Source: Aquamicrobium zhengzhouense
Lineage (GTDB): Bacteria; Pseudomonadota; Alphaproteobacteria; Rhizobiales; Rhizobiaceae
Direction of reading: 5' to 3'
DNA length: 64,000 nucleotides
NCBI RefSeq assembly: GCF_016124105.1
Contig: NZ_JADGMQ010000003.1
Span: forward strand, 186,001 to 250,000
Part shown: piece by piece, positions 62,248-63,983 of the stretch
Position numbering within the stretch: position 1 is the stretch's first letter
Layout: each line of letters begins with the position of its first letter
Translations under genes and position numbers: made by a program
Notes under the pieces: generated by a model
What the model saw: only the letters and a program-made list of their open reading frames with translations
What the model was told of the DNA's origin: nothing
The model's database searches: none

Positions 62248-63669
62248 TTACTCGGCTGCGGCCAATCCTTCGCTTTCCAACCAGCGACGGCAATCAGCGA
62301 GTGCACGGGCGGACAGCGCCCTTTTCTTCGCGATTGCCTTGTCCTTGCCGCGGAAGCGCCCTTCGAAGCCATCCGGACGCAGTTGCGTGCCAGGTTCAAG
62401 TGGCGGGAAGAGGCCGAAGTTCACGTTCATCGGCTGAAAGGAGCGCTTGCCTGGCTCGTCATCTGAGACGATGTGCCCACCGGTGATGTGGCCGAGAAGG
62501 GCACCGAAAGCCGTTGTCTGCGGCGGCGTGACAAGTGACCGGCCAAGACGCTGTGCCGCGGCGAAGCGACCCGCGAGAAGACCGATAGCTGCGGATTCGA
62601 CGTAGCCCTCGCAGCCTGTAATCTGGCCAGCAAACCGCAGGCCCGGACGGGATTTCAACTGCAGCGATCCATCGAGCAGGATCGGCGAATTGATATAAGT
62701 GTTGCGGTGCAGGCCGCCTAGTCGGGCAAATTCTGCATTTTCCAGGCCAGGGATCATGCGGAAGATGCGAACTTGCTCGCCATGCTTCAGCTTCGTCTGG
62801 AACCCGACCATGTTGTAGAGGGTACCGAGTGCATTGTCTTGGCGCAGCTGCACGACCGCGTAGGCTTTCACCGTCGGATTGTGGGCGTTAGTCAGCCCCA
62901 TTGGCTTCATCGGGCCATGACGCAGTGTCTCTGCGCCGCGCTCTGCCATAATCTCGATCGGCAGACACCCATCAAAATATGGCGTGCCTTCCCATTCCTT
63001 GAACTCGGTTTTGCCGCCAGCGATCAACTCGGCGACGAACTTCTCGTACTGCTCCTTGCTCATCGGGCAGTTGATGTAGTCTTTGCCCGTGCCGCCCGGG
63101 CCGACCTTGTCATAGCGCGACTGGAACCAGGCGACGTTCATATCGATCGAGTCGAAATGAACGATTGGAGCGATTGCGTCGAAGAAGGCCAGAGAATCCG
63201 CGCCGGTCTCCGCGGCAATCGCCTCGGCCAAAGATGGTGCCGTGAGTGGCCCGGTGGAAACAATCGTCAGGTCCCAATCCTGCGGGGGGAGACCGGTGAC
63301 CTCTTCGCGCACGATGGTGACGAGGGGGTGCGATTTCAGTGCGGCAGAGACCCGGTCCGAAAATGCGACGCGGTCGACCGCGAGGGCGCCGCCCGCTGGT
63401 ACCTGGCTCGCATCGCCCGACGCCATGATCAACGAATTGGCCAAGCGCATTTCGGCATGCAAGACGCCAACTGCATTTGTCTCGGCATCATCCGATCTGA
63501 ACGAGTTGGAGCAAACCAGCTCGGCAAGGCCGTCAGTCTGGTGCGCCTCGGTCTCTCTTATGGGACGCATCTCGTGGAGGATTACAGGTACGCCCGCTTG
63601 TGCGAGCTGCCATGATGCTTCGGAACCGGCGAGACCGCCACCAACGACGTGTACAGGAGCTATTGTCAT
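62248..63669 (-). CDS. trmFO: Folate-dependent tRNA (uracil-5-)-methyltransferase
   Basis: Makes m5U54 in tRNA using methylenetetrahydrofolate and FAD. 473 residues. FAD motif [20 protein letters not shown] (residues 7-26), [29 protein letters not shown] (conserved Cys), [32 protein letters not shown] and [19 protein letters not shown] 63669 is used; the frame is open further upstream but the leader is not conserved-like. Stop lies 4 bp from the convergent NDUFAF6-like gene. No promoter is clear; the sRNA terminator lies 45 bp upstream. Confidence 0.96.
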
Positions 63670-63712: not shown

Positions 63713-63831
63713 GAAAACGACAACACCCGCCGGGGGAGGAGGACCGGCGGGTGTCGTTTAAGTGGCCCTCAACTGGGAGGAGGAAGTTTTGGGCCTTATT
63801 CGCCGGGTGGGAGGAGGAACCCCGGCGAAAA
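63713..63831 (-). ncRNA. CCUCCUCCC-loop small RNA (cuckoo/CcsR/alpha-r14-like)
   Basis: On the minus strand, just after the DUF1127 stop, three consecutive hairpins each display TCCTCCTCCC in the loop. Hairpin 1: TTCGCCGGG/CCCGGCGAA (63829-63799; loop motif 63818-63809). Hairpin 2: GGCCC..AACT/AGTT..GGGCC (63795-63764; motif 63784-63775). Hairpin 3: ACACCCGCCGG/CCGGCGGGTGT (63754-63723; motif 63743-63734), followed by TCGTTTT, a terminator. Known alphaproteobacterial sRNAs (CcsR1-4 of Rhodobacter, the cuckoo family, alpha-r14/NfeR1) share these anti-Shine-Dalgarno loops, and CcsR is co-transcribed with a DUF1127 gene as here. Targets and processing are inferred. Confidence 0.85.
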
Positions 63832-63842
63832 CTGAATTCTTT

Positions 63843-63983
63843 TTAGACCGACTTGCGGGCGATGAACGGGATGTCACCGCGGGCGATGCCCAAGTCGTGA
63901 AGTTCACGATTGGAAAGGCGGCTCAGCTCGTTGACGGTGTCACGGTAGCGGCGCCAATTGCGGAAATTGCGGATCAAGTTCAT
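63843..63983 (-). CDS. DUF1127 small Arg-rich protein
   Basis: 46 residues: MNLIRNFRNWRRYRDTVNEL, then the DUF1127 core LSNRELHDLGIARGDIP and FIARKSV. AGGTGA lies 6 bp before the ATG. Short DUF1127 proteins in alphaproteobacteria, such as CcaF1 of Rhodobacter, bind RNA and affect stress responses and sRNA processing. It lies directly upstream of the triple-hairpin sRNA, with 12 nt to the first stem, so both are probably from one transcript. Its promoter lies at or beyond the window edge. Confidence 0.88.
   Translation of the reverse strand: MNLIRNFRNWRRYRDTVNELSRLSNRELHDLGIARGDIPFIARKSV

Follow-up and report, generated by a model that had tools for sequence, protein, structure and literature searches.

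Alpha-r14 RNAs with fixed loops and freer stems have been published (PMC3927594, PMC10746234), and short DUF1127 genes combined with CcsR-like RNAs have been named CIN1 (PMC10253847, a paper that cites the original work); the kind of RNA and the kind of gene arrangement described below are therefore already in the literature. NfeR1 of S. meliloti is reported to carry three motifs that are redundant on its targets and to silence two ABC-transporter leaders and ntrB, the LsrB site of its promoter is given as TGCA-N6-GCAT at −72 to −57, and the same study leaves its helper chaperone, if any, unsettled (PMC10746234). LsrB and VtlR are names of orthologues (PMC7486931, PMC11975290), and the VtlR box of B. 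abortus and A. tumefaciens is reported as GCAT-N3-TG-N3-T (PMC7486931). In A. tumefaciens, VtlR bound three promoters only and directly activates atu1667, the orthologue of BAB1_0914 and BAB2_0512, and whether atu1667 yields a small protein or a regulatory RNA is described as unsettled (PMC7486931). The VtlR targets described for A. tumefaciens C58 include, besides atu1667, vrsA of about 300 nt. The B. melitensis counterparts of BAB1_0914 and BAB2_0512 are called DUF1127 genes (PMC12595884). DUF1127 genes share no single control mode, because another S. meliloti gene of this type is governed by uORF-dependent attenuation (PMC12218461).

The window, i.e. the whole stretch of 64,000 nucleotides analysed here, comes from the genome of Aquamicrobium zhengzhouense (4.07 Mb over 29 contigs) and contains a DUF1127 gene, an alpha-r14 (ar14) RNA and trmFO in this order on the minus strand. 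The DUF1127 gene (63843..63983), which encodes a small protein of 46 aa, had been called correctly in the first-pass annotation (PF06568; E-value, 7.2e-18; 64.5 bits against a cut-off of 23.3). The ar14 RNA (63718..63834) starts 8 nt past the DUF1127 stop codon on the same strand. Its three-hairpin form had been noted to resemble alpha-r14, and membership in this family is supported by an Rfam covariance-model search, in which the RNA matched RF02344 over the complete model (positions 1–123) with 86.3 bits, above the gathering cut-off of 58.8. The next gene downstream, trmFO (62248..63669), was identified by a match of 62248-63666 to NF003739 (TrmFO; 672.2 bits against a cut-off of 262); its ATG lies at 63669, and 48 nt separate it from the ar14 match. 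This gene order is kept in all eight genomes of the genus group, the present one included, and trmFO is thus a conserved neighbour. In one of these genomes (locus L010, genome G003), the trmFO match is split into two overlapping pieces, resembling a frame shift or an assembly error.

The 117-nt single strand is predicted to fold into three hairpins with a free energy of −57.6 kcal/mol (shuffled sequences, −34.5 kcal/mol with a standard deviation of 3.1; z = −7.39), located at 63799..63829 (hairpin 1), 63764..63795 (hairpin 2) and 63720..63757 (hairpin 3) on the minus strand, and CCUCCUCCC sits unpaired in every one of the three predicted loops. Exact copies of the anti-Shine-Dalgarno 10-mer TCCTCCTCCC are found at 63809..63818, 63775..63784 and 63734..63743, and these three, all on the minus strand, are the only copies in the whole window. 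A chance repeat was dropped as their origin, since 0.11 copies were expected and none of 100 shuffled sequences contained three. The first-pass annotation had described a shared loop motif of 10 nt; the three copies do lie in the loops, but conservation extends only over the 9-mer CCTCCTCCC. The remaining base of the 10-mer varies: in the 24 loops of the eight genus members, CCTCCTCCC is preceded by A 14 times and by T 10 times. A T run after the last stem, also noted earlier, is present but weak in this strain (GTTGTCGTTTT) and longer in some relatives, so that hairpin 3 can be described as terminator-like with a weak T tail. A terminator scan of L002 (1200-2200), which permits loops of up to 8 nt, found none.

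In an alignment of the eight genus members, all 27 loop columns are invariant, compared with 42 of the 72 stem columns (8 of 24 in hairpin 1, 9 of 18 in hairpin 2 and 25 of 30 in hairpin 3), and CCUCCUCCC is unpaired in 24 of 24 loops. Of the 36 predicted base pairs, 11 have changed on both sides with pairing kept in one or more sequences; for 10, at least one sequence shows a broken pair or a gap. The stems thus vary and partly covary around fixed loops, the opposite of variable loops on fixed stems, and the earlier proposal that conserved loops on divergent stems indicate a functional RNA is supported by this sequence comparison. A coding role for the array was considered and dropped because the DUF1127 stop codon precedes it and because its loops are fixed while its stems covary.

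The same columns bear on an alternative explanation, namely that the hairpins only form the 3' end of the DUF1127 mRNA and stabilise this message, without acting in trans. The short distance from the stop codon and the terminator-like last hairpin are consistent with such a role, and short DUF1127 proteins of A. tumefaciens are reported to act via PhoR, so that the important product may be the protein (PMC12501420); a stabiliser, however, requires stems rather than a fixed loop, and action in trans is reported for alpha-r14 RNAs that stand alone and have the same loops (PMC10746234). We regard this explanation as quite improbable.

Two DUF1127 genes and six ar14 matches, three of which exceed the Rfam cut-off, were identified in the A. 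zhengzhouense genome, and only the copy in the window has a DUF1127 gene directly ahead of it. Two other ar14-type RNAs share a strand of contig C7, at a distance of approximately 0.7 kb from each other (L001, 91113-91230; L004, 90355-90455); L004 is below the ar14 cut-off and contains one full CCTCCTCCC. An ar14-type RNA also follows a phasin-like gene in all eight genus genomes (L005, L024-L029 and L031), at 15-17 nt from the phasin stop codon in seven genomes and 78 nt in L031; the copies L005 and L031 score under the Rfam cut-off, and Phasin_2 was found in both of the phasin-like genes scanned (2 of 8). No box was found in the 150 nt, mostly coding, ahead of seven of these phasin-linked RNAs (L031 left out). 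A link between phasin and an anti-Shine-Dalgarno RNA in Sinorhizobium was not found in the literature available to us, in which the one matching paper concerns mycobacteria.

Within a family sample of 61 genomes including the present one, ar14 matches occur in 60 (above the cut-off in 56) and DUF1127 in 59. A same-strand DUF1127 match is found no more than 600 nt upstream of at least 70 ar14 places in at least 43 genomes, a lower bound obtained from 150 ar14 matches and the first 115 DUF1127 matches. Because relatives are non-independent samples, this and all other counts among relatives should be read with that dependence in mind. The named loci examined were the best 80 of 255 by DUF1127 relatedness (L035 being the genus member L014 again), the closest being that of Aminobacter sp. 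J41, with 96% protein identity. The link of the array to DUF1127 reported earlier extends to these loci: at least two copies of CCTCCTCCC lie within 300 nt past the DUF1127 stop codon in 72 of the 80, one copy in 4 and none in 4. Seven Brucella loci (L040, L041, L046, L049, L050, L052 and L068) have three or four CCTCCTCCC each within 300 nt after DUF1127. When 14 of the 80 loci, picked among the motif-bearing ones, were analysed by cmscan, all 14 contained ar14 above the cut-off. In 48 of 79 named loci, the DUF1127 gene is preceded by a further one in tandem, as judged by an ORF rule. Many of the loci L055-L114, which are mostly from Mesorhizobium, combine tandem DUF1127 genes with several ar14 arrays in a row, and L078 and L112 contain three arrays each above the cut-off.

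Because trmFO is the next gene in all eight genus members and in 63 of the 80 named loci, transcription may read through into it. This conservation and the short T tail in the window would suit an array that works chiefly in cis on trmFO, through tuned read-through past a weak terminator, but such a role appears very unlikely. T tails are long in some relatives, six CCTCCTCCC copies are arranged as two arrays within 300 nt past the stop codon in 30 of the 80 named loci, mostly of Mesorhizobium, and termination does not need the loop motif.

The boxes ahead of the DUF1127 gene suggest how the unit is switched on, namely by LsrB/VtlR. A candidate composite box, recognized by the two published box patterns, is located 75 bases past the window end on the minus strand (C20:250075-250097; window-equivalent 64075-64097), 114 to 92 nt upstream of the DUF1127 start codon. 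In this composite, TGCA-N6-GCAT overlaps GCAT-N3-TG-N3-T, with GCAT common to both. TGCA-N6-GCAT is found ahead of DUF1127 in all eight genus members, and the strict composite in seven of the eight upstream regions compared with 0 of 160 shuffled sequences; L014 has the LsrB box and lacks the strict composite. The two published boxes were fixed beforehand. Scored singly on either strand, TGCA-N6-GCAT occurs in 57 of 79 named upstream regions, against 35 of 1580 shuffled sequences, and GCAT-N3-TG-N3-T occurs in 67, against 86 of the shuffled ones. On the forward strand, 51 of the 79 carry the strict composite (0 of 1580), and 58 carry a relaxed form, TGCA-N6-GCA-N4-TG-N3-T, which was picked after the sequences had been seen (1 of 1580). 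The relaxed form starts 120 to 116 nt upstream of the start codon in 49 of these 58 and elsewhere, between −142 and −107, in the other 9; it is absent from 21 of the 79, including all seven Brucella and all three Phyllobacterium loci. The published VtlR 15-mer with up to three mismatches is present in 76 of the 79 upstream regions, compared with 5 of 395 shuffles.

In the whole 4.07-Mb genome, the strict composite has three matches, one at this locus and the others on contigs C9 and C12, and its reversed pattern has none. The VtlR 15-mer CAATGCAGCCATGCA with up to two mismatches was also tried on this genome and rejected: it has 17 sites (3 for the reversed control) and none at the six ar14 places, and is therefore not the form used here. 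Ahead of stand-alone ar14 copies (12 genus loci, with L004, L006, L030 and L032 left out; 150 nt ahead of each), TGCA-N6-GCAT on either strand occurs in 7 of 12 (3 of 240 shuffles) and GCAT-N3-TG-N3-T in 6 of 12 (11 of 240), and the composite occurs in none on the forward strand and in 2 of 12 on either strand. These counts are suggestive only, but they hint that boxes ahead of stand-alone copies are less regular than those ahead of DUF1127.

Downstream of the box, a promoter-like site with the sequence pattern CTTCAA-N17-CTATCT was identified on the minus strand, again past the window end (C20:250034-250062; window-equivalent 64034-64062), and the pattern CTTC[A/T]A-N17-CTATCT is present in this position in all eight genus members. 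Assuming a start approximately 7 nt after CTATCT, TGCA-N6-GCAT would lie at about −70 to −57, and with this predicted start the candidate box position agrees with the LsrB site of NfeR1 (−72 to −57). An E. coli-type scan for an internal promoter in L002 (1200-2200) found none. The −35 element is similar both to RpoH and to RpoD consensus elements, and the promoter core cannot by itself separate the two.

The first-pass annotation had likened the link to DUF1127 to Rhodobacter CcsR and had proposed checks under heat and oxidative stress. CcsR-like stress control is not supported as the main idea, and the upstream DNA points elsewhere. Such a unit would be expressed from an RpoH-type promoter under these stresses, and RNase E together with the DUF1127 protein would excise the hairpins. 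For ccaF1-CcsR1-4 of R. sphaeroides, an RpoHI/RpoHII promoter and processing by RNase E are reported (PMC10253847). The promoter core conserved in the genus could be read by RpoH; however, the composite LsrB/VtlR box upstream of it, which occurs far above chance, indicates a LysR regulator, and the stress analogy is therefore probably not the main control. In addition, one three-hairpin unit is present here, against four sRNAs in the R. sphaeroides system. LsrB of A. tumefaciens is reported to be redox-linked (PMC11975290), and oxidative stress may thus still matter. On balance, we consider a CcsR-like unit unlikely.

A gene for the indicated regulator is present in the same genome. On contig C12, trxB, a LysR gene of 300 aa and ar15 lie in a row, and residues 1-299 of the LysR protein align with 9HH1, which is LsrB of A. 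tumefaciens (E-value, 1.4e-142). This ar15 copy (L132:3499-3610), beside the LsrB orthologue, contains TTCCTCCTCCC, and GCAT-N3-TG-N3-T lies 63 nt ahead of it. We take ar15 to be the AbcR family. smrC15 is equated with AbcR2 in a published table (PMC7143759), and the trxB, vtlR and AbcR genes are reported to adjoin likewise in A. tumefaciens (PMC7486931).

From the sequence, the predicted fold, the conservation, the gene order, the boxes and the presence of the regulator gene, we infer that the locus specifies an LsrB/VtlR-activated mRNA which encodes the 46-aa DUF1127 protein and an anti-Shine-Dalgarno ar14 RNA that represses other mRNAs, an interpretation that we regard as likely. One promoter would give rise to a single mRNA with the DUF1127 coding part first and the three-hairpin alpha-r14 RNA at its putative end, i.e. 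an operon of the CIN1 kind. The LysR regulator LsrB/VtlR probably activates it by binding the composite box, which starts some 70 nt before the predicted transcription start. While still joined to the mRNA at its 3' end, or once released by processing, the RNA would offer three CCUCCUCCC loops, and these may base-pair with the Shine-Dalgarno regions of other mRNAs and reduce their translation, a step proposed because the three motifs of NfeR1 act in this manner. The DUF1127 protein may help to mature the RNA, as suggested by the CcaF1 precedent; the effect of short A. tumefaciens DUF1127 proteins on phosphate genes through PhoR contacts and the report that RNA binding was not found for Salmonella YjiS (both PMC12501420) count against this role.

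Transport genes are likely targets. The pattern GGGAGGAG-N4-9-ATG has 23 sites in the genome (3 for the reversed control); one place enters this count twice, and another site is antisense to the ar14 copy L004. Downstream of such sites are 17 genes whose ORF has 50 aa or more. Pfam analysis of 8 of these 17 candidate targets identified five transport parts (two DctP, one TctC, one Peripla_BP_4 and one ABC ATPase). Because the eight genes were picked after their sequences had been viewed, these transport parts serve as a lead rather than as a measure of enrichment.

A broader and more tentative idea, which we hold to be possible and somewhat short of an even chance, is that the Rhizobiales LsrB/VtlR core regulon consists of anti-Shine-Dalgarno RNAs, with AbcR-type RNAs, NfeR1-type RNAs and DUF1127 mRNAs with alpha-r14 3' parts all being direct targets. 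If true, this would explain how hundreds of genes are changed by a regulator with few direct sites, atu1667-type genes would make both a protein and an RNA, and these Hfq-independent RNAs would have a candidate helper in the co-encoded DUF1127 protein. Against this idea, LsrB of S. meliloti is reported not to drive AbcR RNAs (PMC7486931), although another study describes co-activation of AbcR1 by LsrB (PMC10746234), and restoring AbcR2 and three DUF1127 genes is reported not to rescue the virulence of a B. melitensis vtlR mutant (PMC12595884). With a conserved unit that combines an LsrB/VtlR box, a DUF1127 gene and an alpha-r14 array, the questions of the atu1667 product and the NfeR1 chaperone become testable in harmless strains. 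A statement that VtlR/LsrB-activated DUF1127 genes are DUF1127-alpha-r14 units was not found in the portions of the literature available to us, which do not extend to the source papers on cuckoo RNAs and CcaF1; the link may already be published, and its novelty is uncertain.

Among the known systems, NfeR1, the founding member of RF02344, resembles the RNA in the window in having three hairpins, CCUCCUCCC in each loop and variable stems, and an LsrB box of the same form is reported upstream of it (PMC10746234). NfeR1 is reported to have a sigma-70 promoter of its own, which carries LsrB and NtrC sites (PMC10746234), whereas the boxes at the present locus lie ahead of DUF1127. The available text on VtlR makes no mention of an alpha-r14 array behind VtlR-activated DUF1127 genes (PMC12595884, PMC7486931), but atu1667 of A. 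tumefaciens and BAB1_0914 and BAB2_0512 of Brucella share with the present locus a DUF1127 gene under VtlR/LsrB control or with the corresponding box. The Brucella DUF1127 loci compared here, which are not assumed to be identical with BAB1_0914 or BAB2_0512, have no relaxed composite box, unlike the present locus. In ccaF1-CcsR1-4 of R. sphaeroides, regulatory RNAs likewise lie in the 3' region of a DUF1127 gene (PMC10253847), but the protein has 71 aa and is followed by four sRNAs, compared with 46 aa and one three-hairpin unit here, and the RpoHI/RpoHII promoter reported there contrasts with the LsrB/VtlR-type box of the present locus. In the arrangement of CIN1 and the cuckoo RNAs, a short DUF1127 gene is followed by anti-Shine-Dalgarno hairpins, as in the window; in the description given by the citing paper (PMC10253847), no defining difference between CIN1 and the present unit is apparent.
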